Assembly: GCA_021323755.1 (NCBI GenBank)
Contig: JAJPKJ010000069.1
Location: 22,064 to 86,063, forward strand
Length of the DNA: 64,000 nucleotides
Direction of reading: 5' to 3'
Origin: Chitinophagales bacterium
GTDB taxonomy: Bacteria; Bacteroidota; Bacteroidia; Chitinophagales; Chitinophagaceae
Within the stretch, counting starts at the first letter, position 1. Each line of letters opens with the position of its first letter. The notes under the pieces were generated by a model that was not told the DNA's origin, did not search any database, and worked only from the letters and a program-made list of their open reading frames with translations. This document shows positions 49,520 to 64,000 of this stretch, in pieces. The position numbers and the translations under genes are program-made.

Positions 49520-50068
49520 ATGCTGATTAATGACCGATTTTATGTTGACCCATTACGCAATGAGGTTACCGATAAGCAAAAGGGCAAGCTTGAACGTGTA
49601 GAGCCAAGGCTGATGAAGCTTTTATGCCTTATGGTAGAAAACGAGGGAAGAACAGTTTCAAGAGAAAAGATTGTTACAGAAATCTGGAATGATTATCCCG
49701 GCGGTGACGAGGGGTTAAACCAGGCTATTTCAGTTTTACGGAAATTACTCAATGACAATGAAAAGCGTATCATAGAAACACTCCCCAAGACCGGTTATAG
49801 TTTTCATGGGACAATTGACCACAGCCCAATTGCTCCCAAACGGAAATCAAACAAAGTAATTTATGCTTTGGCTGCTTTGTTTTTATTATTGAGCATCGCA
49901 TTGGCAACGGCCTATTATAAGTACCGTCCGAATGACAAAATTATTCCGGGTAAGCTTTCCCATCAAGAAGCCGTCAGGGCTTCTAAAATAGATAGCAAGG
50001 AGAATAGCAAGGGACTTACAATGGATTCCTTGGCCAAATTGGATAGCAAAAAAAGTTTGCATCAATAG
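49520..50068 (+). CDS. Winged-helix (Trans_reg_C, CadC-like) regulator with a TM segment
   Basis: 'RVEPRLMKLLCLMVENEGRTVSREKIVTEIWNDYPGGDEGLNQAISVLRKLLND'. Confidence 0.85.
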   Translation: MLINDRFYVDPLRNEVTDKQKGKLERVEPRLMKLLCLMVENEGRTVSREKIVTEIWNDYPGGDEGLNQAISVLRKLLNDNEKRIIETLPKTGYSFHGTIDHSPIAPKRKSNKVIYALAALFLLLSIALATAYYKYRPNDKIIPGKLSHQEAVRASKIDSKENSKGLTMDSLAKLDSKKSLHQ

Positions 50069-50377
50069 AAACCCAGCTAGCCGGTCCCCGTAATCCAGCA
50101 CAGGAAGAATGCAAGTCTTTCTAAAATGATTTTTGCATCCACTGAAATTTGTTTTTCATAAGAATCATTTATTGAAGACTGATATTCTTTTTCAGTCTGA
50201 TAAAATAAATAATAAACTTTATTTACGAAATATTTGCTTTGCGATTGTTTGTCATAAAAGGTCAACGCAAATCGCCTCTATTATAGGAGAAGACAATATC
50301 ACAAGATTTTCTGTAAGCTCCCCTGAATTTGATGCCACTAACAATTAGAGTTTTCTAGTTTTTAGTAATTCTAGGGA

Positions 50378-50480
50378 AACCGTAGGAATAACAATGAACT
50401 TTTATATCTTTATCCAAGCATCGTTTGTGAGCTGACTTATTTCAAAATCCACCACATCGCCAATGCTCGAACGTTGGCTG
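50378..50480 (+). repeat. Site 1: attC-like right half-site, first element of the array
   Basis: AATAACAATGAAC...GAGCTGACTTATTTCAAAATCCACCACATCGCCAATGCTCGAACGTTGGCTG, matches right half of the type A sites. Confidence 0.8.
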
Positions 50481-50499
50481 TAATTATTGACAGACTCTC

Positions 50500-50988
50500 A
50501 TGATATCAAAATTTACTCTAAAATCTGTCTTTCCTTTAGTTTGTATTATCCCTTTAATATTTGGACTTTCATTTTATACTTACTTCTCGTTTGACAAAAC
50601 TAAAACTCCAACACCATTGCATGGGATACCACTAATTTTATTATTGACATTTACTTTAATCTTGTTATTCTTTGGAGAATTCAGAAACAAAATGATTAAA
50701 GTTGAACTTCATAACACATTCTTGACAATTAAAAAATTCGGAGGACTTTCTTTTTCAAAAAAATATTTGTATCAAGATCTTGACGGCTTTAAAATATCAG
50801 TTCTTCGTTCATCGGCGACAAACAATGAATATTTATATTTTATGCAGAACGGTAAAAAGATTGGAAAAATTTCAGACTTCTATCACAAAAATTATTTGGA
50901 CATGAAAGCCGAAATAGAAAGCAAATTAAAAAATTTGGGGTTTGAGAAGTTCAGTTACGTCGATGAGCTAAAGGAGATATTCATTTAA
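50500..50988 (+). CDS. Cassette 1: small membrane protein, unknown
   Basis: Two N-terminal TMs; lies between sites 1 and 2; C-terminus resembles the fragment at 53706-53903. Confidence 0.7.
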   Translation: MISKFTLKSVFPLVCIIPLIFGLSFYTYFSFDKTKTPTPLHGIPLILLLTFTLILLFFGEFRNKMIKVELHNTFLTIKKFGGLSFSKKYLYQDLDGFKISVLRSSATNNEYLYFMQNGKKIGKISDFYHKNYLDMKAEIESKLKNLGFEKFSYVDELKEIFI

Positions 50989-51008
50989 CAACAAATAATC
51001 GTGAAATA

Positions 51009-51216
51009 TAACTACAGCGAAAAGTAGGTTTGGCAAAAAACTTGCTGACGAACAACGTTCTTTAACTTCAGTTCTTTGTTTCAGCATTTGTTCCGGCAGA
51101 CAATATTCTATTGAGCTAAATATCTTAACTTGAACTATAAACAAAAATCTAGTTTAGCAAGACGGGCGGACAGAAATCCATTTACCGCAAATTTGCCAAT
51201 CCCTGACGTTGGCTGC
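51009..51216 (+). repeat. Site 2: divergent attC-like site
   Basis: Left AACTACAGCGAAAAGTAGGTTTGGCAAA; right CAAATTTGCCAATCCCTGACGTTGGCTGCT. Confidence 0.6.
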
Positions 51217-51248
51217 TACTCTTTCGGACTATCCTAAATTTTTTAAAA

Positions 51249-51995
51249 ATGATTTATACAAACGACGAAGCTGACAAATCAATAAGACAGAAAAACTTTT
51301 ATCTAACAGTTTATGTTTTGCCAATAGCGGCGGTGGCTATAATTTGTGGACTCGTTTATTCGGCTTCAAAGGCAAATTACCTGACAAGAACTGATACAAC
51401 TTATGGCTATGTTTTTTCACTTACGCCAGCACTTTTACTTTATGCGTTTAACAAGCGAAACTGGTTAAAAATGCCTGACGGAACTTATCACAACATCAAA
51501 GGTATTTCCCAAACAAACACAGTGACCGTAAATGAGCCGATAGAATATGAAGCCGAATATTTTTATTCTAAAAAAGAAAAGGCGACTTCGGCTCTTCTTG
51601 GGTTATTAATGGTCGGCATTGGAATTTGGGTTGCAGCTATAGGTGCAAAGACAATTCTTGTTCCAATTGTAACTGTAATTGGTGGACTGTTTTTAGCTTA
51701 CATAGGTATTAAAGGATTGCTCGACAAGACTGCAAAGTTGAAACTTGCAAAAAAAGGGATTTGGACAAAAAAATTAGGTTTTGTTGATTGGAATAATGTA
51801 ACGAAGGCACAAGTAATTGAAGATAGAAGTGGACGGACACCACAAACAATTTTAGAGATTTATTTAAAAGGTACAGTTTTCGCAGAAGCAAACCAGCCTG
51901 ACGAAAGGCTTATTTTGACGGATATTGAAGACAAAGGAATGGTTGAAACAGTAGTGGGCACATTAATGAGTAAACGCACTGAACTCGTGACATAG
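51249..51995 (+). CDS. Cassette 2: membrane protein, unknown
   Basis: 248 aa, about four TMs; between sites 2 and 3. Confidence 0.75.
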   Translation: MIYTNDEADKSIRQKNFYLTVYVLPIAAVAIICGLVYSASKANYLTRTDTTYGYVFSLTPALLLYAFNKRNWLKMPDGTYHNIKGISQTNTVTVNEPIEYEAEYFYSKKEKATSALLGLLMVGIGIWVAAIGAKTILVPIVTVIGGLFLAYIGIKGLLDKTAKLKLAKKGIWTKKLGFVDWNNVTKAQVIEDRSGRTPQTILEIYLKGTVFAEANQPDERLILTDIEDKGMVETVVGTLMSKRTELVT

Positions 51996-52200
51996 AGCAG
52001 CAGCAAACATTGCATTGACGTTATTTGGGCGGATGCTAATACTGACTTCAACTTCAGCTACCTATTAACGTTAGGTTCAGTAGACTATTAAGAATTTGGA
52101 ATTATTAATATCAATTATCTTTTGTAAATTTATTAAGTATTTGTAATCGGATGACGAATTTCAAATTACGCCGAAACACAAATGCGTCAAAGTTGTGTGC
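51996..52200 (+). repeat. Site 3: attC-like site
   Basis: GAGCAGCAGCAAACATTGCATTGACGTTATTTGGGCGGA...CACAAATGCGTCAAAGTTGTGTGC. Confidence 0.75.
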
Positions 52201-52206
52201 CATAAT

Positions 52207-52851
52207 ATGACTCGCTATTTATTCATAGGTTTTTTTCTAATGACATTTCATAATTCTCCAGCGCAGACATTGGACAAATATGCAGACCAGCTTTATCTTG
52301 GTATGCTTTCTTTGCATCCTGATACTTCGATAAATGAATTTCTGGTGAAATACGTTCCAGTTGTTTTTAAAAAATTTGACAGCAACATGAAGTGGACAGT
52401 ATATCCTAAAGTTTCAATCAAAGAACCAGAATATTATAAAGTGACTAACTCGTATATTTTTAACAAGCATCCATATTTTAACGGACATTTTAAATCTGGA
52501 CAATTAGCAATAACCCAAAAGATTTATTCTGAAAAAAAATGGAGCGATATTACGGACATTGAACTTTGGTTTGAATTCGACACTAAAGATGACGCGAGAA
52601 AATCTTTTTCGCAATTGGTTGACACATTTTCAAGTTTTAATGTCCTTAAAAGAATAACATCACAACAAGGAATTGACAAAGTTGAATTCACAGATAAAAA
52701 TTGTGACAAGTATTATAGTAATATTCAAATCATTTTAGCTACCGATTATTCTCTTGGCAAAACATATATCATGCCAACAAAAAATGGCACAAAGACTATC
52801 ACTAAAGCTGGATACAAAATTCTCGTTGAAATCGGAAATAATCTATATTGA
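52207..52851 (+). CDS. Cassette 3: exported protein, unknown
   Basis: ATG downstream of the site 3 core; signal-like N-terminus MTRYLFIGFFLMTFHNSPAQ. Confidence 0.7.
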   Translation: MTRYLFIGFFLMTFHNSPAQTLDKYADQLYLGMLSLHPDTSINEFLVKYVPVVFKKFDSNMKWTVYPKVSIKEPEYYKVTNSYIFNKHPYFNGHFKSGQLAITQKIYSEKKWSDITDIELWFEFDTKDDARKSFSQLVDTFSSFNVLKRITSQQGIDKVEFTDKNCDKYYSNIQIILATDYSLGKTYIMPTKNGTKTITKAGYKILVEIGNNLY

Positions 52852-52854
52852 CGA

Positions 52855-53057
52855 TTGCGGCACACAACATTCGGTTTGCAGCTATGCTTGCGCGGCGAAA
52901 ATGACTTCGGCGGCAAATCATTATCTCGCTTTTGTTCCGGCAGACGGAATTCTTTTAAGTATTGTTGTTAACTTCAAATAAATATTTTCAATCGGCTTCA
53001 GTTCTGGCTGACAATTATAAGATCCCAGCACAGCAGCAAGCCGTCAACGTTGGCTGC
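52855..53057 (+). repeat. Site 4: attC-like site, type B
   Basis: GCGGCACACAACATTCGGTTTGCAGCTATGC...CCCAGCACAGCAGCAAGCCGTCAACGTTGGCTGC. Confidence 0.75.
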
Positions 53058-53065
53058 AAATAAAT

Positions 53066-53737
53066 ATGACATACCTAAAACTCATAGCGGGAATCTTAAT
53101 AATTACTTTTACAACCTTCGGGCAATCAACAAATAGGACACAATCAAAACGTTTAAATGTAAAGCGGGACAATCCTTCTTCTATAATTTTTGGAATATTT
53201 TGTGGGGAATGTATAGGGCACTGTGCAACTATGTATCGTTACAACATAATAGGTAGTTCTAAAACATTATACGTTGACACTACTGATAGCTATTTTAAAA
53301 ATTTTGGCAAGGTTCTTTGTAAAACACAAATAAGTGATACCAGCGAATTCGAGGCAATCGACAAACTTGTTCAACACATACCAAAAGCATTTTTTACGAC
53401 AGTCAAAACAGAGCTGACTTTTGGGTGCCCAGACTGCACGGATGGTTGTGGAATTTATTTTGAACTTCGGCAAGACACTACAATAAGAAAGTTCTACATT
53501 GACTATAGCACAGATAAACTTGAAAAAGACGCAAAAGATTTTGGAGAATTTGTAAAAACAACTATTGGAGAATTGAACAAAAGAATTAAATACACCTTTA
53601 TGCCTCCAGCCAGCATTAGGTTTACCGCAATGCTGGCGGGCACAATAGCAATCAGCGGCAAATCATTAATAATCTTCGGTTCCGGCGGCCATTATTCAAT
53701 TGAGCTTTGTAAGAAGGTCCAGTTATGGTTCTCATAA
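53066..53737 (+). CDS. Cassette 4: exported protein, unknown; last ~45 residues are read-through of a half-site
   Basis: Signal-like N-terminus; C-terminal 'PPASIRFTAMLAGTIAISGKSLIIFGSGGHYSIELC' is encoded by type B site sequence. Confidence 0.6.
   Translation: MTYLKLIAGILIITFTTFGQSTNRTQSKRLNVKRDNPSSIIFGIFCGECIGHCATMYRYNIIGSSKTLYVDTTDSYFKNFGKVLCKTQISDTSEFEAIDKLVQHIPKAFFTTVKTELTFGCPDCTDGCGIYFELRQDTTIRKFYIDYSTDKLEKDAKDFGEFVKTTIGELNKRIKYTFMPPASIRFTAMLAGTIAISGKSLIIFGSGGHYSIELCKKVQLWFS
53605..53700 (+). repeat. Left half of a type B site (right half lost)
   Basis: TAGGTTTACCGCAATGCTGGCGGGCA...ATCTTCGGTTCCGGCGGCCATTATTCAATTGAGC; matches 60676-60770. Confidence 0.75.
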
Positions 53738-53903
53738 AGAAATATTATTTATACAAAACAATAAAGTTATTGGCATAATTTCCAGTGAATATAATTCTAA
53801 CTATAAAGAATTATTAAGTGCTATAACCGGCGTAAGTTATCTTGGGACATTTGACTATAATTTCCAAGATAAAATAGGAATGCTATTTAATAAGGGAATC
53901 TGA
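53706..53903 (+). pseudogene. C-terminal fragment of a paralog of the cassette 1 protein
   Basis: RRSSYGSHKEILFIQNNKVIGIISSEYNSNYKELLSAI...DKIGMLFNKGI vs cassette 1 LRSSATNNEYLYFMQNGKKIGKISDFYHKNYLDMKAEI...DELKEIFI. Confidence 0.65.
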
Positions 53904-53907
53904 AAAG

Positions 53908-54117
53908 CCTGCCACCAACATTGCGTTGGGGTTATGTCGGCGGACAGATTAATAAACCTCGGCTTCAGCTATCTATCATCTTTAGTCCGGGCTGGACATT
54001 ATGAATTGAGCGATAGGAATAACAATGAACTTTTGTACATTTAACCAAGCATCGGTTGTCGGCTGACTTTTTTCAAATTCCGCCACAAACGCCAATGCGA
54101 AACGTTGGCTGCAAGCT
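53908..54117 (+). repeat. Site 5: attC-like site, type A
   Basis: CCTGCCACCAACATTGCGTTGGGGTTATGTCGGCGGA...TCCGCCACAAACGCCAATGCGAAACGTTGGCTGC. Confidence 0.85.
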
Positions 54118-54120
54118 TAA

Positions 54121-54585
54121 ATGAGAGGTTCCAAAATCAAAATATCCAACTTAATTAGGAATACTTTTTTTATTCCTTTCTTTTTCCTCGGACATATATT
54201 TTATGACTTAGGAATTGGATATTGGTTGTTTGAACTTGCGGGAGGGATTACATATCATCCAGAAGAACCAGTTTTTAAAACTCATTTCGGGGGTATAAAT
54301 TGGGCTTTCGAGACACCATTATATATCCCTGGAAGTTACTTGATGGCAGAGCATAATGTTGCACCTTGTACATGGACTGGCGGTCAATGGGACATTTTAT
54401 TACTACTTTTTGCGACAACGTTGACAGCAATTGCAACTGGACAATTGATTCAGAAAATTATAAATAAAGACAAAAATAAGTTTGGAAAGTTTTATTGGCG
54501 TTTAATAATTATTATACTTGGCTGGGTTTTTATTCCTGTTCCAGTTGAAATGACAATGGCATATGAATGGACAGTTTTATGTTGA
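54121..54585 (+). CDS. Cassette 5: membrane protein, unknown
   Basis: 154 aa, about three TMs; between sites 5 and 6. Confidence 0.75.
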   Translation: MRGSKIKISNLIRNTFFIPFFFLGHIFYDLGIGYWLFELAGGITYHPEEPVFKTHFGGINWAFETPLYIPGSYLMAEHNVAPCTWTGGQWDILLLLFATTLTAIATGQLIQKIINKDKNKFGKFYWRLIIIILGWVFIPVPVEMTMAYEWTVLC

Positions 54586-54597
54586 CAAAATATAAAA

Positions 54598-54805
54598 GCC
54601 AGCAGCCAACTTGTGCATTTGTGTTACGTCGGCGGACGAAAATGCCGACATCAGCTTCAGCTATCTATTAACGTTAGTTTCAGCAGACAATTGAGAATTA
54701 GACATTATTAATATCAATGATCTTTTTTTAAATTTATTAAGCATTTGTAATCGGCTGACGAATTTCAAATTCCGACGACAACACAAATGCGAAAACGTTG
54801 CAAGA
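54598..54805 (+). repeat. Site 6: attC-like site, covariant arms
   Basis: GCCAGCAGCCAACTTGTGCATTTGTGTTACGTCGGCGGA...AACACAAATGCGAAAACGTTGCAAG. Confidence 0.85.
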
Positions 54806-54814
54806 AATTTTAAA

Positions 54815-55342
54815 ATGACAGTTCGCTCCGTAATTTACAGTTTGACAATTGTTACTTTTTTCTTATCCTCAATTGTTGGTTGTGGACAAGTAACAAAACC
54901 TAAATCAATTGACAAAACTCAATCTCAACAAAATAACAATCTAAAGTTTGATACTTCAGCTACGACAATAATTCAGTTTGACAAACAGGTAAATTATCCG
55001 TTTGGCAATACATATAAGCAATCAACATTGACACAGACTGATATTAATAATATTGACAGTTTATTAATTAAGTGCGTGACAGACTACAATAATTCATTGC
55101 AGCAACCTTACAAGCAATTAAGCATAGACTTGACAAAAAAGAATTACAGAAAACAATTAGTTGTTGTGACAAATAATAAAGGCGAAAAGGAAGTATGGGT
55201 GAATTGTTTTTGTGACACTTGGGACAAGAATTGGAAAAAAGAAATTTTGCTTGTGCAAGATGGAGGTAATTGTTATTTCAACTTCAAAATTAACTTAACA
55301 ACGAAGAAATATTATGACTTAATGGTAAATGGCGATGCTTGA
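54815..55342 (+). CDS. Cassette 6: lipoprotein, unknown
   Basis: Lipobox SIVGCG; between sites 6 and 7. Confidence 0.75.
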   Translation: MTVRSVIYSLTIVTFFLSSIVGCGQVTKPKSIDKTQSQQNNNLKFDTSATTIIQFDKQVNYPFGNTYKQSTLTQTDINNIDSLLIKCVTDYNNSLQQPYKQLSIDLTKKNYRKQLVVVTNNKGEKEVWVNCFCDTWDKNWKKEILLVQDGGNCYFNFKINLTTKKYYDLMVNGDA

Positions 55343-55347
55343 CAAAA

Positions 55348-55555
55348 ACTGCTTGCAACATTGCATTGGCGTTATGTCGGCGGACAGATTAATAAACTTC
55401 GGCTTCAGCTATCTATCATCTTTAGTTCGGTTTGGACTTTTTGTATTGAGCGATAGAAATAGCAATGAACTTTTTGTAATTTTAATTAAGCATCGGATGT
55501 CGGCTGACGATTTTCAAATTCCGCCGGAAACGCGAATGCGTCAACGTTGGTTGCT
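55348..55555 (+). repeat. Site 7: attC-like site, type A
   Basis: ACTGCTTGCAACATTGCATTGGCGTTATGTCGGCGGA...CCGCCGGAAACGCGAATGCGTCAACGTTGGTTGC. Confidence 0.85.
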
Positions 55556-55563
55556 ATTTTAAA

Positions 55564-56082
55564 ATGACACTCTCTAAATTTTTAAAAATATTTGTTGGAC
55601 TGCTTTTGTTTGGTGCAGCTATCTGTATTTTGACATACAAAACTTGTCCCATTCTTTTAAAGTTCGTAATTGGTTCAGCAAGACAAATTGGTAAACCAAT
55701 AAATGCAACAGTTTATACAAACGGAAGAGTTAACAAGGACATTAAAGTTTATCACACTAACAAATATTGGGACACAACCGCAAAGGCGGACGACTATATT
55801 ATAAGTTTGAAAGAGTTTGACAGTTTGGGTATGTTTAAATTTTTCAATGTTGACTTAAAAGAAAAATGGATTGGCAGACCAGTCGGTACATCCAATAATG
55901 ACTATGACATTGTGTTTGGACATTTATTTCAAAGTCAAACAGGCGGACACTTTATGCCATTTCAAGACGACATGAAAGGTTTCAACTTCGACCCACATCT
56001 TTCATTTACTGACAGAGAAATAAAATTTAATGTTCCACCAAATTTATTAAAGTTTGACAGTGTTAGAATAGAATTGCAATAA
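55564..56082 (+). CDS. Cassette 7: membrane-anchored/exported protein, unknown
   Basis: N-terminal TM; between sites 7 and 8. Confidence 0.75.
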   Translation: MTLSKFLKIFVGLLLFGAAICILTYKTCPILLKFVIGSARQIGKPINATVYTNGRVNKDIKVYHTNKYWDTTAKADDYIISLKEFDSLGMFKFFNVDLKEKWIGRPVGTSNNDYDIVFGHLFQSQTGGHFMPFQDDMKGFNFDPHLSFTDREIKFNVPPNLLKFDSVRIELQ

Positions 56083-56096
56083 ACTCCTTGGACAAA

Positions 56097-56300
56097 ACAG
56101 CAACCAACATTGCATTGGCATTATGTCGGCGGACAGATTAATAAACTTCGACTTCAGCTATCTATCACATTCAGTTCGGGCTGGACGTTATCAATTTAGC
56201 TGCAGTTTTTATCTTCAACTTTTGTAATTTTATTCGGCATTGGTTGTCGGCTGACGTTTTTCAAATTCCGCCACATCGCCAATGCGAAAACGTTGCAAGC
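56097..56300 (+). repeat. Site 8: attC-like site, type A
   Basis: ACAGCAACCAACATTGCATTGGCATTATGTCGGCGGA...CCGCCACATCGCCAATGCGAAAACGTTGCAAGC. Confidence 0.85.
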
Positions 56301-56308
56301 AATTTTCA

Positions 56309-56878
56309 ATGACACTTCGTATAATCTCAATTATTACTTTGACATTAACCTTATTGTTTGACACAGGTTGCAATGTTGACAATACAAATTCCAAAATTGT
56401 AAAAAATGATACGACAGATATTTTAAAAATTTTAATTGACAGTGCGCTTTATCACGAAAGATTGCCTGACTTTGGCTTTTTAACTCGCAACAATCCATTT
56501 GGCGACACAATTATTTTTAAGTTTGACAGCATTCTTGTTGGACATTTGCCAACAAACTTAAAGTATAAGCTTTTGACACAAGATGAGATTTGTTCACTTG
56601 CCAGGCTGCATTGCTATGACGCAAATCATTCCTGTTCTTTCCTCAAACTTGACAGCTTTAAAAAAGTTGACAGCACATACAAAGTCTTTTTGCAAAATCA
56701 ATGTGTAATGCCTTTGTTTGACAAAAATGGTAAGCAATTGTTTGACTCTGCGTTTATGCAGAGACATAATTATTCTAAATGTACATCTGGTGGTTTGTGT
56801 GGTGGTGGTATGTCGATGACTTTTGTTATGCAAGTCGACACTGTTAAAGCTAAAATTGAAGGTTTTTGGTCAGACTAA
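56309..56878 (+). CDS. Cassette 8: lipoprotein, unknown
   Basis: Lipobox-like FDTGC; ATG about 17 nt from the site core. Confidence 0.75.
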   Translation: MTLRIISIITLTLTLLFDTGCNVDNTNSKIVKNDTTDILKILIDSALYHERLPDFGFLTRNNPFGDTIIFKFDSILVGHLPTNLKYKLLTQDEICSLARLHCYDANHSCSFLKLDSFKKVDSTYKVFLQNQCVMPLFDKNGKQLFDSAFMQRHNYSKCTSGGLCGGGMSMTFVMQVDTVKAKIEGFWSD

Positions 56879-56879
56879 A

Positions 56880-57089
56880 ACTGCTTGCAACATTGCATTG
56901 GCGTTATGTCGGCGGACAGATTAATAAACCTCAACTTCAAAATATTTATCATCTTTAGTTCAGGCTGGACGTTATGAATTTAGCCTTAGTAATAACAATG
57001 AACTTTTATACCTTTAACCAAGCATCGGTTGTCGGCTGACGTTTTTCAAATTCCGCCACATCGCCAATGCTTCAACGTTGTGTGCAAGC
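56880..57089 (+). repeat. Site 9: attC-like site, type A
   Basis: ACTGCTTGCAACATTGCATTGGCGTTATGTCGGCGGA...CCGCCACATCGCCAATGCTTCAACGTTGTGTGC. Confidence 0.85.
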
Positions 57090-57172
57090 CAGTATCAACC
57101 CTTCTTTATTTTCAGGCATGACATTTATGCAAAATTTAATATTGTTGCATCAAGATAAAAATATAAGCGACA

Positions 57173-57664
57173 ATGAGAAAAATACTATCTGCCATTACAT
57201 ACTCTTTCTTATTATGTTTATTGTTTTCATGTAATTCGACGAAAAACATATTTGGTGTTTACAAATCAAATTTTGCTGTCGGTGGCTTTTTCGGAACAAC
57301 AGTGAGATTATATTCAGACTCCAGTTTTACTTTTCGAATGAGTGGCGATTTAGCTTATGACACAGCCGCAGGACATTTCAAAATTTCTAAAAACTCTGTC
57401 ATTTTAATTTATAAGCCTCTGACAATTGATACATCTTCGGAGTATCAAACAATGAAAGAATCATTTTCTATTCATGAGGCAATAACAGGCAATCATAATC
57501 TTCGTGAACCTACTAAGTATTTGGCTGGACACAATAAACTCTTTTTGACAGATAAAAATGGTTTTAGAGTTAAACGACAATGGGGTTATTCAGGGCACAG
57601 AAAATATATTTTGTTCGGAAAACATTGGTACATGAAAAGATATTTTTTAAAGCGGCGTGACTGA
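57173..57664 (+). CDS. Cassette 9: lipoprotein, unknown
   Basis: Lipobox LLFSCN; between sites 9 and 10. Confidence 0.75.
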   Translation: MRKILSAITYSFLLCLLFSCNSTKNIFGVYKSNFAVGGFFGTTVRLYSDSSFTFRMSGDLAYDTAAGHFKISKNSVILIYKPLTIDTSSEYQTMKESFSIHEAITGNHNLREPTKYLAGHNKLFLTDKNGFRVKRQWGYSGHRKYILFGKHWYMKRYFLKRRD

Positions 57665-57872
57665 AGCCTGCACACAACATTGCATTGGCGTTATGTCGGC
57701 GGACAGATTAATTAACTTCAACTGTAGCTGTCTATCATCTTTAGTTCGGGCTGAACATTATTAATTTAGCTGCGATTGTTATCTTCATCTTTTGTAATTT
57801 TATTCGGCATTGTTTGTCGGCTGATGTTTTTCAAATTCCGCCACAAACGCCAATGCGCGAACGTTATAGGCT
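57665..57872 (+). repeat. Site 10: attC-like site, type A
   Basis: AGCCTGCACACAACATTGCATTGGCGTTATGTCGGCGGA...CCGCCACAAACGCCAATGCGCGAACGTTATAGGC. Confidence 0.85.
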
Positions 57873-57917
57873 ATGATAGGGCGACATCTCACGCCACGAC
57901 GGACAAAAACTAAGACA

Positions 57918-58490
57918 ATGCAAACGGAAATAAAAACAGTTGACATCTTTGAGCGGTTGCGAAGCGGAGAAACTATTCCACCAAACGACCCTGAAGCATA
58001 CAAAATGATAGAAACTTCGTTCGCTACAAAAAAATTACTTGTTCGCATGAATAGTACAGACGACCCGACCGAAGTAAGAAATTTATTAAGCCAAATTACA
58101 GGTCTTGAAATTGATAAAAGCACAACCATATTTACACCATTATACATCAACTACGGAAAGCATATCAAAATTGGCAAAAATGTATTCATTAATTTCGATT
58201 GTACATTTTTGGACTTGGGTGGAATTACTATTGAGGATGGTGTACTGATTGCTCCGAAAGTTAGTTTGCTTTCGGAGGGGCATCCTGTTTCGCCAGAAAG
58301 CAGGCATTCGTTAATAGTGGGACATATTCACATCAAGAAAAATGCGTGGATAGGTGCAAACGCTACCATTTTGCAAGGCGTGACGATAGGTGAAAATGCA
58401 GTTGTAGCTGCAGGAGCAGTAGTCTCTAAAGATGTTCCCGCTAATACGATTGTTGGCGGTATTCCAGCAAAGGTCATTAAAACGATTTGA
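57918..58490 (+). CDS. Cassette 10: hexapeptide-repeat (maltose/galactoside O-acetyltransferase-like) acetyltransferase
   Basis: '[37 protein letters not shown]...[45 protein letters not shown]'. Confidence 0.9.
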
Positions 58491-58508
58491 AAGCAGGTGA
58501 CCAATGCC

Positions 58509-58719
58509 CACAGCCTATAACATTGGTATTTGCAAAAGCTGGGCAGACGTATGCTGTGTTTCAACTTTTGTTTTTCAATTTGGCGTCATATCGGGCAGGA
58601 CGTTACTAATTTAGCTATGAGCATATCATCAACTTTTATTTATAAATTTAGCTTCAGGTAGCCGGGCGGACGGAATACAATTCCCCAGCATTCGCAAATA
58701 CCTGCTCGTTGCCTGCAAC
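58509..58719 (+). repeat. Site 11: attC-like site, distinct arm sequence
   Basis: CAGCCTATAACATTGGTATTTGCAAAAGCTGGG...CCCCAGCATTCGCAAATACCTGCTCGTTGCCTGC. Confidence 0.8.
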
Positions 58720-58742
58720 CATTTGACAACAGTACGATACCA

Positions 58743-59294
58743 ATGAAACTAAAAATTTTTACCACGACATTTGCACTTTTCTTGTTAACAAGTTTGACAA
58801 TCTTTGGGCAGACAATTGACACTTCAACACAAGCTATTCATTCAGTTCAGGCAGACACATTAACGACTGCAACAAAGACTGACCAATTTGCTGGGACTGA
58901 CGACTTTTCACCAATGCAATTATTCTTTGTCCTGATTTTATTAGCAGTTGTTTTGTTAGGTATTGGTTTGACAATATTAATACTGTTCATTTTGTTCGGT
59001 CTTGTTTCAGTTGGCATTTTATCAACTTCAATAATTGTAGGATTAAATAAAAAATCATTTACAAAAGGTTTCAAAACATTTATACTTCTTGCAACGACAA
59101 TTGCTGGATTTTTAATTGGTGGCTTAACTTTTCTGTTAATACATAAAATCAATCATTGGTGGACACTAAAGACATCAATTATTTCGGGAACAATATCTGG
59201 GCTTTTGGGAGGTTTTGTATTCGGGCTCTTGTTATTTTATATTCTACGACGCTTGACAACTTATTTTAAACAAAAACTTAAACTGACAATTTAA
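58743..59294 (+). CDS. Cassette 11: polytopic membrane protein, unknown
   Basis: Signal-like N-terminus plus about four TMs. Confidence 0.75.
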   Translation: MKLKIFTTTFALFLLTSLTIFGQTIDTSTQAIHSVQADTLTTATKTDQFAGTDDFSPMQLFFVLILLAVVLLGIGLTILILFILFGLVSVGILSTSIIVGLNKKSFTKGFKTFILLATTIAGFLIGGLTFLLIHKINHWWTLKTSIISGTISGLLGGFVFGLLLFYILRRLTTYFKQKLKLTI

Positions 59295-59311
59295 TAACAC
59301 CAGAGAGTATG

Positions 59312-59519
59312 GCAGCAGGCAACATTGCATTGGCGTTATGTCGGCGGACAGATTAATAAACTTCAGCTTCAGCTATCTATCATCTTTTGTTCCAGCTCGA
59401 CGTTATTAATTTAGCTCTGGTTCTTATCTCCATCTTTTGTAATTTTATTCAGCATCGGTTGTCGGCTGACGTTTTTCAAATTCCGCCACAAACGCCAATG
59501 CGAAAACGTTGGCGGCAAT
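59312..59519 (+). repeat. Site 12: attC-like site, type A
   Basis: GCAGCAGGCAACATTGCATTGGCGTTATGTCGGCGGA...CCGCCACAAACGCCAATGCGAAAACGTTGGCGGC. Confidence 0.85.
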
Positions 59520-59644
59520 TAGCAAAGAAAGTTTTTAAAATCGACAAAACAATTAAGACACTTCACCTAAATTTATTTACTATGCCATTGGGTAAGGACG
59601 TGCAATATCATAAATTAGCGTGTTGGCTGCTATAATGGTTTTCT

Positions 59645-60091
59645 ATGCGATTACTACTCATATATTCTTTAATTCTAACAGCAAATAGTTTTTGCAAGCC
59701 AACGGAGTTGCGTCATGACATAATTGAGCTCAGGGATAAGACAAGCATTGCCAAAAGGTTGATTCGTCTGGACACTGTATTTTCATTTACCGGGGTTGCC
59801 GTAGACAGTTTTAATACGGAGTGCAGCAGATACGCAGAATGTATCTGTTTTGACAACGTACGATTTAAGGTTATTATTTGTCCAGACTCTATGAAACTAA
59901 AAGACAAAATAATTGGAGTTTACATCAGATGTTTTGAAGACAGCTATAATTTTAGATTATACAAAGACTCAACTTTTTTTATTACTGTGACAACAAAATT
60001 CACTCCAAGGACACTCATTAAAGACAAGTATGAAAGTGACAATTTGCGACAGTATTGGTGTACTAAAATTGAACCTGCTAATCTAAAGTAA
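59645..60091 (+). CDS. Cassette 12, ORF a: small exported protein, unknown
   Basis: 148 aa; signal-like N-terminus. Confidence 0.65.
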   Translation: MRLLLIYSLILTANSFCKPTELRHDIIELRDKTSIAKRLIRLDTVFSFTGVAVDSFNTECSRYAECICFDNVRFKVIICPDSMKLKDKIIGVYIRCFEDSYNFRLYKDSTFFITVTTKFTPRTLIKDKYESDNLRQYWCTKIEPANLK

Positions 60092-60095
60092 CAAA

Positions 60096-60647
60096 ATGAA
60101 ACTCTTTCCATTTTTAAAAAAGAAGGACAATAAAATAGTTTACAAATGTTCTTGTTGTGGACAAGAATATGACAGTGTTCCTCTTTGTTTTGGCGGAGAT
60201 TTTCCAGACTATTATTTTTCTGTTCCACCTGAAGAAAGAAATGAAAGAATCGAATTACAACCAAGCCTTTGTGTCGTTGACAAAACACATTTTTTTCATC
60301 GTGGAAGGTTGACAATCCCAATCATTGACCACACAGAGAATTTAATTTTCAACGTTTGGACTTCTATAAGCGAAGACAATTTCGGAATTAGAATGGACTT
60401 TTGGGAAGACCCAAAAAGAGTTTACCAAGAACCGTATTTTGGTTGGTTACAAACAATTGTCCCAACTTATGGTGACACACTAAATACTAAGACAATTGCA
60501 ATCGAACAAGAAGTTGGACTAATTCCAAATATTCAGGTTATAGAAGAAAATCATCCGCTAAAAATTGACCAAGACAATGGGATTACATATAAAGAAGCAT
60601 TAAAAAAAGTTGACGAAATATTACGAATGAATCATCAGAAAAACTGA
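60096..60647 (+). CDS. Cassette 12, ORF b: DUF2199-like protein
   Basis: 'YKCSCCGQEYDSVPLCFGGDFPDYYFSVPPEERNERIEL...NFGIRMDFWEDPKR'. Confidence 0.8.
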   Translation: MKLFPFLKKKDNKIVYKCSCCGQEYDSVPLCFGGDFPDYYFSVPPEERNERIELQPSLCVVDKTHFFHRGRLTIPIIDHTENLIFNVWTSISEDNFGIRMDFWEDPKRVYQEPYFGWLQTIVPTYGDTLNTKTIAIEQEVGLIPNIQVIEENHPLKIDQDNGITYKEALKKVDEILRMNHQKN

Positions 60648-60662
60648 GCATACTATTTTACG

Positions 60663-60867
60663 GAGCAGCAGTCAACACTAGGTTTGCCGCAATGCTGGCA
60701 GTTAAGATAACAATCATCGGCAAATTTTTAAGCAGCTTTGGTTCCAGCGGACATTATTCTATTAGGCATTTGTATTAGCTTCAGCATAAAACCATTGACG
60801 TGGCTTTTCTTTTGGCTGACGGAAATAAAACGCCAGCACTGCAGCAAGCCTCGGTCGTTGTGCGCAA
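60663..60867 (+). repeat. Site 13: attC-like site, type B (complete)
   Basis: GAGCAGCAGTCAACACTAGGTTTGCCGCAATGCTGGC...GCCAGCACTGCAGCAAGCCTCGGTCGTTGTGCGC. Confidence 0.8.
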
Positions 60868-60871
60868 TATT

Positions 60872-61435
60872 ATGACCTTACGATTTTCAATATCATTATT
60901 GTTTCTAGTGTTGACTCTTCAATTATACTCTCAGGTTGACTTTAGAATTCGTAAGCAGAAACTTAAACCTACATTCATTGATACGACAAAGGAAAAAATC
61001 ATTATTTATGAAGTTCCTAACGCAATTCTCTACTTTAGACAGGACGACATAAAAAGCTTCATTGATAATCCAGAAAATAAAAATATATTGGCAAATTATG
61101 GATATCAAGCATTGCAAGACACGTTAGCTAAAACAGCTGGAAGAATTAAAATAACTGACATTTACTTTTCCTATGATCAACGTCAACGTGACAGTATATT
61201 CAGACAGCAGCCAGAAAATATTTTGACCGAAAAACTTAACGAAGAATTTTATTTCCTTTGTGCAGGGTTTATTTTAAACGGAAGGTTTATGGTTTATTCA
61301 AAGTCAAAAAAAATATTTATAATAAAAGGGCTTATTGCAAGAAGACAAAAAGGGTATTTAGGTGAAGAGTCTTTGCAGTTTTATTTGCCAGACAAAAAGG
61401 GATTTTATTCAATAGTAACAAGACTTGGCGAATAA
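60872..61435 (+). CDS. Cassette 13: exported protein, unknown
   Basis: Internal ATG 13 nt after the site core; signal peptide MTLRFSISLLFLVLTLQLYSQ. Confidence 0.7.
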   Translation: MTLRFSISLLFLVLTLQLYSQVDFRIRKQKLKPTFIDTTKEKIIIYEVPNAILYFRQDDIKSFIDNPENKNILANYGYQALQDTLAKTAGRIKITDIYFSYDQRQRDSIFRQQPENILTEKLNEEFYFLCAGFILNGRFMVYSKSKKIFIIKGLIARRQKGYLGEESLQFYLPDKKGFYSIVTRLGE

Positions 61436-61641
61436 ATGCTACGCACAAAATGGGGTTTTATGCTATTGGGGCTTGACCAACAATCTTCATCTAAAAACAA
61501 AACCAGTCTTTAGTTATAGCTGGACAAACACCTTTGAAATTTAGTAAAAACAATGAACATTTAATTATAAATTTAGCAGTAGTACTGGGCAGAACATTGG
61601 TAAATATCCCAACAGCATAGAGCCCTGAACGTTGTTTACTA
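61436..61641 (+). repeat. Site 14: attC-like site, distinct arm sequence
   Basis: GCTACGCACAAAATGGGGTTTTATGCTATTGGGGC...CCCAACAGCATAGAGCCCTGAACGTTGTTTAC. Confidence 0.7.
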
Positions 61642-61664
61642 TGCGTTGACAAACCTCAAACCAT

Positions 61665-62168
61665 ATGGCAGTTTTTGAAAATAATCCTGACGAATGGCAA
61701 AGACTTGACTGGCAGATTTTACAAAATGGCTGGACAAGTTTATATTGGCGACAAAGTATTTTAGACAACGACATTGACTGGTTTAAAAAAGAAAAATACA
61801 ATATCATTGACATTGATTGCACAAACTGGGCAGTCACAAATCAAATTCATAAAGACCTCAAAAAGCAACTTGACTTTCCAGACTATTATGGAGATAATTT
61901 CAACGCTTTAAATGATTGCCTTTCTGAACTTGAAATAAAAGACGCAGGACTTGTTATTGCATTTCGACACTTTCAAATTGTTGACAAAGACCTTGCTCAC
62001 AGTTTGCTTGACATCTTTGCTCGTAATTCGCGACTGCATTATTTATTTGGCAAAAGGCTATTAACACTTGTTCAAGTTGACAATCCAAAATATCAAACTG
62101 ATCCCGTAGGATCAAGTTCAGTCTTATGGAATGCTGCAGAATGGTTGGACTCAAAAAGAGGTTTATAA
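61665..62168 (+). CDS. Cassette 14: barstar-family protein
   Basis: 'IIDIDCTNWAVTNQIHKDLKKQLDFPDYYGDNFNALNDCLSEL' barstar motif (DFPDYYGxNxxALxDCL). Confidence 0.85.
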   Translation: MAVFENNPDEWQRLDWQILQNGWTSLYWRQSILDNDIDWFKKEKYNIIDIDCTNWAVTNQIHKDLKKQLDFPDYYGDNFNALNDCLSELEIKDAGLVIAFRHFQIVDKDLAHSLLDIFARNSRLHYLFGKRLLTLVQVDNPKYQTDPVGSSSVLWNAAEWLDSKRGL

Positions 62169-62196
62169 ACTGACTCATTCTGTAACTTGACAAAGA

Positions 62197-62230
62197 AGTA
62201 CTGCACACAACATTGCAATGGCGCTATGTC
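62197..62230 (+). repeat. Left half of a type A site, broken after TATGTC
   Basis: AGTACTGCACACAACATTGCAATGGCGCTATGTC. Confidence 0.7.
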
Positions 62231-62779
62231 CTTTAGGTTTGTTAAAGACAAGTTCAACATTACTATTTTTACCCTTTCTTTTTTTGCTTCTTTTTTTACA
62301 ATTCACAATTTTTTGTGAATAAACTAATCAATGGTGGCAACAACTCATTAGGCATTATGTAGGGTTAATTGCCCATCTGCCGATATAATCTGATGCCACC
62401 TTAATTGCCATTGTGTTCATATAGAAATTAGGGATTAAAGGCCCAATATAAAGGACTAGAACCGAAGCAATATGATTAACATTTTTTGAATTGCTAAAAG
62501 TAAAATTCATGAACCAAAAAAGTTTGTAGGAGTTGATGTATCAACACACACACTTAATGACGCTTTTGTAGTCCGCAATGATGATGAACTTACCAATCCC
62601 TAATGGAAACAATTTGAAAATTCCGGTAGTGGAATAAAGCAAATTGAAAAATGGCTTGTACAAATGAGTATTCGTCTTAATGGGCAAACCATTTTTGTGT
62701 TGGAAAATACAGGGACTTATCAGGGGCTGTTGTGGCAATCATTTATTGCAACAGGTGTGGATGTGTGCATTGAAATGGG
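62231..62779 (+). mobile_element. IS110-family insertion sequence remnant (left noncoding end plus N-terminal transposase fragment)
   Basis: From ~62520: KKFVGVDVSTHTLNDAFVVRNDDELTNP*WKQFENSGSGIKQIEKWLVQM...TIFVLENTGTYQGLLWQSFIATGVDVCIEM; internal stop and C-terminus missing. Confidence 0.75.
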
Positions 62780-62912
62780 CTTCGGCTCCGGCGGACATTA
62801 TTCTATTGAACATTTGTTTTAACTTCAACATAAAATCATTGACCGGGCTTCAACAATCTGCGGACGAATATAAAATCCCAGCACTGCGGCAAGCCTCGGT
62901 TGTTGTGTGCAA
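62780..62912 (+). repeat. Right half of a type B site
   Basis: CTTCGGCTCCGGCGGACATTATTCTATTGAAC...CCCAGCACTGCGGCAAGCCTCGGTTGTTGTGTGC. Confidence 0.75.
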
Positions 62913-62930
62913 TATTTAACACAAACCAAA

Positions 62931-63446
62931 ATGACAACATCACTACAAAAGACTGCTCAAATCGCTTTCTGTTTTTCAATTCTGACTATTGCTTTGTGGA
63001 GCTGTAATTCAAACTCACAAAAAGTTGACATTAACAAGAATATTGAAACAGTAAAAAAATACCATGAAGTTTGGTCAAATGGAAATATAGAAGAACTTGA
63101 CACCATTATAGCTCCAAATTTTATAAGTCACTTTATAGGCGGATTTGAATACAAAGGAATAGATGGCGCAAAGGAATCTGTGCTTGAGACCAGGAAAGCC
63201 TTTCCAGATTGGAGAGAGCAGCCTGTCGATATTATCGCCCAAGGTGATAAAGTTGTTACCAGATTTCATTCCACAGGTACCCAGCTTGGCACTTGGGACG
63301 GCATCGATTCAACAGGAAATAAAGTAGACATTTACGAGGCATCAATCTATCGCCTTGAAAATGGCAAAATCGTTGAACAATGGGGATTCTGGGATGAAAT
63401 AAACTTGAAAAAGCAAATGAAGGCAAAATCAAACCAATCAAAATAA
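62931..63446 (+). CDS. Cassette 15: SnoaL/NTF2-like ester cyclase-type lipoprotein
   Basis: Lipobox LWSCNSN; 'YHEVWSNGNIEELDTIIAPNFISHFIGGFEYKGIDGAKESVLETRKAFPDW'. Confidence 0.8.
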   Translation: MTTSLQKTAQIAFCFSILTIALWSCNSNSQKVDINKNIETVKKYHEVWSNGNIEELDTIIAPNFISHFIGGFEYKGIDGAKESVLETRKAFPDWREQPVDIIAQGDKVVTRFHSTGTQLGTWDGIDSTGNKVDIYEASIYRLENGKIVEQWGFWDEINLKKQMKAKSNQSK

Positions 63447-63448
63447 TA

Positions 63449-63620
63449 ACTGCACACAACAAATGCATTTGTAAAAGCATGGTTTGACAAGCCGCATTTA
63501 TACATCAGTAATTCTAATCATCTTTAGTTATCGTCAGACATCACGCTATTGAAAATTTGTAATTATTTTCAACATCAGTTTTTCAATTAAGCATTTGTAC
63601 CGGCTCACCAATCGCTATTG
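63449..63620 (+). repeat. Terminal degenerate attC-like site (right arm not recognisable)
   Basis: ACTGCACACAACAAATGCATTTGTAAAAGCATGG...AAGCATTTGTACCGGCTCACCAATC. Confidence 0.55.
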
Positions 63621-63904
63621 CCTTGCTTGGCTGACTCAACGATCAATGAATCTGTACGTGAACTTTATCATCCGTTGATAGCATTAGAAGGTTAATAAGG
63701 CTTTAAATGCAAATTACTTGACGCAGGATTTCTAAAGAATGCAGAGATGCGCAAAACCGCGCATAGAAGAAGAAAGAGGGGTTCAAAATTCTTTGGTCTC
63801 TAAAATTACACCAAAAAGTCTGCTTTAGCCTGCGAGAATCAGCATTTTCCATAATTTGAAAAATGTTGATTTCCATCATTTTGCAGAAATCTGCGTGATT
63901 TTCA

Positions 63905-64000
63905 GTGGAGGTGAGGAGAGTCGAACTCCTGTCCAAACATATTCTTCAAAAGCTTTCTACATGTTTATTTGATTATTATTTGTCGGGAGAAAACAGGAAA
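63905..64000 (-). ncRNA. ssrA: tmRNA 3' portion (continues beyond window)
   Basis: Reverse complement has ...TTTGGACAGGAGTTCGACTCTCCTCACCTCCA, the tmRNA T-arm and acceptor end. Confidence 0.85.

Follow-up and report, generated by a model that had tools for sequence, protein, structure and literature searches.

A probable deletion scar between two cassettes in an orphan integron-like array of a Chitinophagales bacterium

How does a cassette gene come to run through half of an array site and into the tail of another gene? Such a unit lies in the window analysed here, 64,000 nt of DNA (positions 22064-86063 of contig C20) from a Chitinophagales bacterium whose 4.08 Mb genome is in 75 contigs and 99.8% complete. 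A first-pass annotation of this DNA had read the unit as a deletion scar. Our conclusion is that 53590-53903 is very probably just that, a scar that fuses two cassettes, neighbours or at one time close to each other, in an integron-like array. Homologs, sites and recombinases were sought in 399 genomes of the family, the relatives recovered being Chitinophagaceae; L numbers denote loci. Features are collected in Table 1.

Table 1. Positions in the window of the array, the fused unit and neighbouring features
Feature	Position	Strand	Remarks
Whole orphan cassette array	50381..63622	+	13 complete sites and four truncated (50381, 53598, 62774, 63442)
First array site	50381..50498	+	Right half only, columns 121-237
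Cassette 1 gene	50500..50988	+	162 aa; intact distant paralog of the fragment
Cassette 4 start, GTTGGCTGC	53049..53057	+	Right end of the preceding complete site (52854-53071)
Cassette 4 ORF	53066..53737	+	223 aa; homologs end near residue 171 (about 53580)
Type B left half-site	53598..53711	+	Site HMM columns 15-125 of 238 only
Deletion junction, CTTTGTA	53705..53711	+	Ambiguous by up to ~5-7 nt
C-terminal fragment of a cassette-1-superfamily gene	53706..53903	+	~62 codons; lacks the N-terminal membrane part and half of the soluble domain
Complete site after the fragment	53901..54123	+	Left end GCCACCAAC at 53911-53919
tmRNA gene	63903-64000	minus	Cut by the contig end

The cassettes of the array begin with GTTNNNNNN and end with NNNNNNAAC. 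Within a cassette the two hexamers complement each other, at 81 of 90 bases in all, where permuted data give 53±3.9 and none of 200,000 permutations reaches the observed value. Between the arms of a single site only 46 of 84 bases match. The ends of integron cassettes are complementary because both meet in the excised circle, so this pairing within cassettes is the integron pattern and marks the array as integron-like. The same holds elsewhere, where 72% of 83 consecutive site pairs share at least 9 nt, compared with 3.6% of mismatched pairs. Sites in the window align over ~230 columns, the site HMM having 238. Among 59 aligned sites we find 14 stem pairs; 12 have compensatory changes on both sides, and for 11 of these 12 the changes occur in 16-30 of the 59 sites. 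The AAC and GTTR of the core are conserved, while the RRRY of the attC core is not strictly kept. Most sites are ~205 nt long and some ~160 nt; in the L060/L061 array ~160-nt sites that have no hairpin middle stand among ~205-nt ones, suggesting that this part varies or can be dispensed with. No Rfam family covers the array sites, and a match to SNORD34 was dismissed as chance.

No recombinase for the array was found in this genome, and upstream of the first site (50068-50498) no integrase, recombinase or attI is left. For this reason, and because three further sites are truncated in addition to the one at the scar, we regard this orphan array as decaying, with ordinary decay as the simplest frame. 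The truncated site at 62774 adjoins a weak IS110-like transposase remnant; this decayed piece (PF01548, E=0.008, below cut-off) splits a site at 62190-62920, separating the left end from a right part further on. The last site (63442) is reduced to columns 10-189, with ~280 nt separating it from the 3′ end of the tmRNA gene. The cassette at 59302-60879 has two genes (59645 and 60097) with a lone GTTGGCTGC inside, at 59622-59630, and is possibly another fused cassette. Pfam recognises the cassettes at 57873-58490 and 62931-63446 (a hexapeptide-repeat acyltransferase and a SnoaL-like protein), and no domain in cassettes 1 and 4. A second short stretch of such sites, on contig C75 of the same genome (L075:2230-3837), comprises a right half-site, one complete site and one truncated site.

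At its left end the half-site reads CCAGCCAGC (53606-53614), which agrees with the complement of the cassette 4 start in 7 of 9 bases. It is closest to the site at 60664: 53607-53711 aligned to the complete type B site 60669-60774 gives a local score of 117, where the maximum of 200 shuffles is 36. Two further sites give matches as well, one at 52865-52965 and, in its right-hand part, one at 62768-62817. In three independent comparisons identity to the three type B sites stops at 53710/53711, and in the alignment to these sites nothing resembling a right half-site follows 53711, as the first-pass annotation had claimed. That annotation placed the break near 53700; the break itself is confirmed, and its position moves to 53705-53711. 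The junction is abrupt and has no repeat, and its exact position is ambiguous because the bases there fit both sides.

Two other origins of such a junction bear on these few bases. The genome is in 75 contigs and the sites are repeated, so two arrays might have been joined in assembly; nothing longer than ~5 nt is common to both sides of the junction, however, and unique DNA continues on either side, leaving an artefact extremely improbable. Alternatively, an insertion sequence or other element could have entered the site and left by an imprecise adjacent deletion. IS1111-attC elements target attC sites in integrons, and the split site at 62190-62920 with its transposase-like piece is a candidate case from this very array; at 53700-53760, though, no transposase remnant or terminal repeat is seen, and we judge this course quite unlikely. 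The term IS1111-attC is in use in PMC11187229.

The first-pass annotation was right that the cassette 4 ORF is open into the type B left half-site: all 223 codons are open, and neither the stretch up to the half-site nor the half-site itself contains a stop. In other genomes the homologs of cassette 4 (best, 47% identity over residues 5-170) end near residue 171, from which it follows that the tail comprises ~38 site-encoded residues and then a last ~9 that are paralog DNA read in another frame. The read-through claimed earlier thus stands, and its figure of about 45 site-encoded residues does not. An intact homolog ending like the 223-aa protein had been named as evidence against a scar; no cassette 4 homolog that we found ends in this way or has the extra tail. 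The type B sites at 60664 and 62774 have a stop in the same frame just past the break point (after RHLY and EHLF, respectively), and cassette 4 therefore probably ended there before the deletion. At L214:1899-1940 a cassette 4 homolog with an upstream site has a TAA stop that coincides with a site-like left core (CGCTAACAT).

Beyond the junction lies the end of a different gene. Its alignment to the cassette 1 translation, the check proposed at first pass, is significant (BLASTP, 33% identity over 61 aa, E=8e-7), and the cassette 1 family HMM finds it with E=3e-12, the best unrelated ORF of the 1122 in the window reaching 0.016. This bears out the claim of a C-terminal fragment of a cassette 1 homolog. 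The HMM was made from 19 full-length homologs, several of them cassettes bordered by sites like those of the array (L035, L046, L048 and L055), and 28 of the family's 399 genomes have relatives of cassette 1. In the homologs a soluble domain comes after hydrophobic N-terminal segments. The fragment retains only the last third, namely the family C-terminal domain with its NYxELK helix and the preceding strands. The 5′ part, reported missing at first pass, has no other copy anywhere in this 99.8% complete genome. No viral relatives of the fragment were found.

Could this remnant be a working gene? A 67-aa frame from 53700 is open, has a TTG start and keeps the C-terminal motif of the family, so it might be a functional short gene sharing a fold with cassette 1 by descent. 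We hold this to be very improbable, given that the start codon lies inside the half-site with no cassette start before it and that homologs have the N-terminal part.

The first-pass annotation took the fragment to show that the array once held a second copy of the cassette 1 family. At superfamily level this is upheld; as a duplicate or closest relative of cassette 1 it is not. The fragment is nearest to an intact cassette of Ilyomonas limi, L055 (33% identity over 64 aa). A tree built on the C-terminal region gives support of 0.83 to the node joining these two and splits their clade from that of cassette 1 with 0.98, and a recent duplicate of cassette 1 is thereby rejected. Since it clusters with other subfamilies, the fragment is probably an independently acquired paralog from a subfamily other than that of cassette 1. 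L055 has a complete site on both sides, and an arrangement of this type is the kind from which the scar must have derived. Looking in relatives for the intact form of the scar yielded only such analogous intact cassettes: the ancestral arrangement itself was found in none of the genomes searched, and so the deletion ends cannot be mapped from outside.

On its downstream side the fragment ends in the complete site 53901-54123 at the usual spacing. A half-site and a C-terminal gene fragment followed by a complete site in its regular place support the deletion reading. From the left end GCCACCAAC, the start of the lost cassette is predicted to have been GTTGGTGGC. Of the 6 variable bases in the ends of the fused unit, GTTGGCTGC at 53049 and GCCACCAAC at 53911-53919, only 4 pair; this is near what chance would give, and is expected if the composite derives from two cassettes. 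The same ends bear on whether the deletion took place here. It might have occurred on a different replicon or in a different genome, with the resulting composite (cassette 4, half-site, fragment and site 53901) being captured later as one cassette. The composite is still bounded by a site end at 53049 and another at 53919, and many genomes have cassettes of the same system. Capture as a unit is nevertheless unlikely in our view: unlike most cassettes of the array the composite has poorly pairing ends, and this genome has no recombinase to capture it.

A deletion within the array may be reconstructed as follows. Cassette 4 would first have been closed by a complete type B site, and a later cassette would have carried a full-length (~160 aa) relative of cassette 1 with the site at 53901 behind it. 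A single illegitimate deletion, possibly at a short shared TTTGT, would then have taken out the right half-site, the 5′ two thirds of the paralog and any cassettes between, so that the type B site now runs from its middle into the paralog at codon ~100. The half-site should be unable to form a hairpin, for which both arms are needed, so that cassette 4 and the gene remnant, presumably a pseudogene, would act together as a single composite cassette (53049 to 53919). Since a stop lies shortly beyond the break in intact type B sites, the cassette 4 protein would have lost no more than the last few of its site-encoded residues. The partial homologies, their abrupt junction, the missing halves and the lack of a recombinase are observed. 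That a single event was enough, in what order things happened and by what mechanism, and that the site lost function and mobility, we infer from the remains.

Two further ideas about the event were discarded. The first array site lacks columns up to 121 and the scar lacks those from 125, as if breaks favoured the hairpin centre; half-sites elsewhere break anywhere from ~45 to 193, a count blurred by partial HMM matches, and with positions so scattered a special cutting mechanism is not supported. Entry of the block between the two half-sites as one circle was rejected on finding no N-terminal part of the paralog upstream of 50381.

Relatives show what this array may once have had. Many genomes of the family have such arrays, with up to ~25 sites; Ilyomonas limi, Pinibacter soli, Terrimonas and Flavisolibacter are among the named carriers of both an array and the recombinase described below. 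Related loci of the integron-like system include L060, L065, L073, L128, L172 and L201. The signature is also seen in Anaerophaga (Bacteroidales) and in one Cytophagales MAG, each a single case. In several relatives the DNA directly upstream of the array encodes, on the same strand, a tyrosine recombinase ~370-435 aa in length with PF00589 and a SAM-like domain. It is found in 159 of the 399 genomes of the family and in 3 of 9 sampled other genomes of the same genus. The phylum-wide count is 80 of 248, which is not a count of integron-like systems, since the recombinase relatives of marine Flavobacteriia (Arenibacter, Maribacter and Euzebyella) have no array by either test.

For the array-adjacent recombinases the best family match is XerA (NF040815, 207-219 bits against a cut-off of 220), and the best structure match by sequence is the XerC/XerA-like 4a8e (E=3e-40). 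They differ from XerA-type recombinases in an extra N-terminal part of ~90 residues, in their place in front of cassette arrays, and in a C-terminal end (SPLD motif) that the integron-integrase model also matches. That model, TIGR02249, matches in two pieces (about 2-181 and 240-315) with 162-191 bits, cut-off 265; we take the unmatched region between ~181 and 240 to be the IntI-specific domain. An attI-like core, GTTRNNNGY, lies 100-310 nt after the recombinase, often with CGTATATTTAT before it. In 27 of 32 loci at least 9 nt of it complement the left end of the first site, compared with 10.6% of mismatched pairs, and crossover would presumably fall at its GTT.

With integron arrays this system shares tandem co-oriented small genes, hairpin-forming sites ending in GTT, and cassette ends complementary within a cassette; as in integrons with IntI, attI and attC, a tyrosine recombinase and an attI-like site precede the array in relatives. 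attC sites are usually shorter than ~150 nt, with the core RYYYAAC / GTTRRRY, whereas here most sites are ~205 nt and the core is GTTRNNNGY. Recombinase and array are moreover on the same strand, unlike in integrons, and the neighbouring recombinases appear to lack the IntI-specific domain, so we do not file the system under IntI integrons. CALINs are attC clusters without an integrase, and the present array is like these; cassette excision and capture would proceed by analogy. Sedentary chromosomal integrons leave deletion remnants of the same form as our scar, a pseudogene fragment and a broken site in an otherwise regular array. The difference is that this is a system of Bacteroidota, which software that searches for integrons by the IntI domain would be expected to miss. 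According to the work of Messier and Roy (2001), as it is cited in PMC9668308, the domain is necessary for IntI activity. Surveys report few integrons in the phylum: IntegronFinder 2.0 (PMC9024848) gives one complete integron for Bacteroidetes proper (Salinibacter), and earlier only In0. No published description of such a system was found in the open-access journal literature, which our search covered.

We therefore face what looks like a gene-capture platform of Bacteroidota that has so far gone unrecognised. We think it likely that the phylum has a widespread integron-type system, with attI, folded attC-like sites of ~205 nt and single-gene cassettes, served by a XerA/XerC-type recombinase without a domain thought indispensable for integron integrases, and that the scar is a snapshot of decay after loss of the recombinase. 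On its own the scar is an ordinary deletion, which shows how arrays erode and cassettes fuse; its value comes from its position in a decaying member of this apparently unrecognised system. If the recombinase works on folded single strands without the IntI-specific domain, the requirements of the integron reaction would have to be revised, and a large pool of uncharacterised mobile genes would open.
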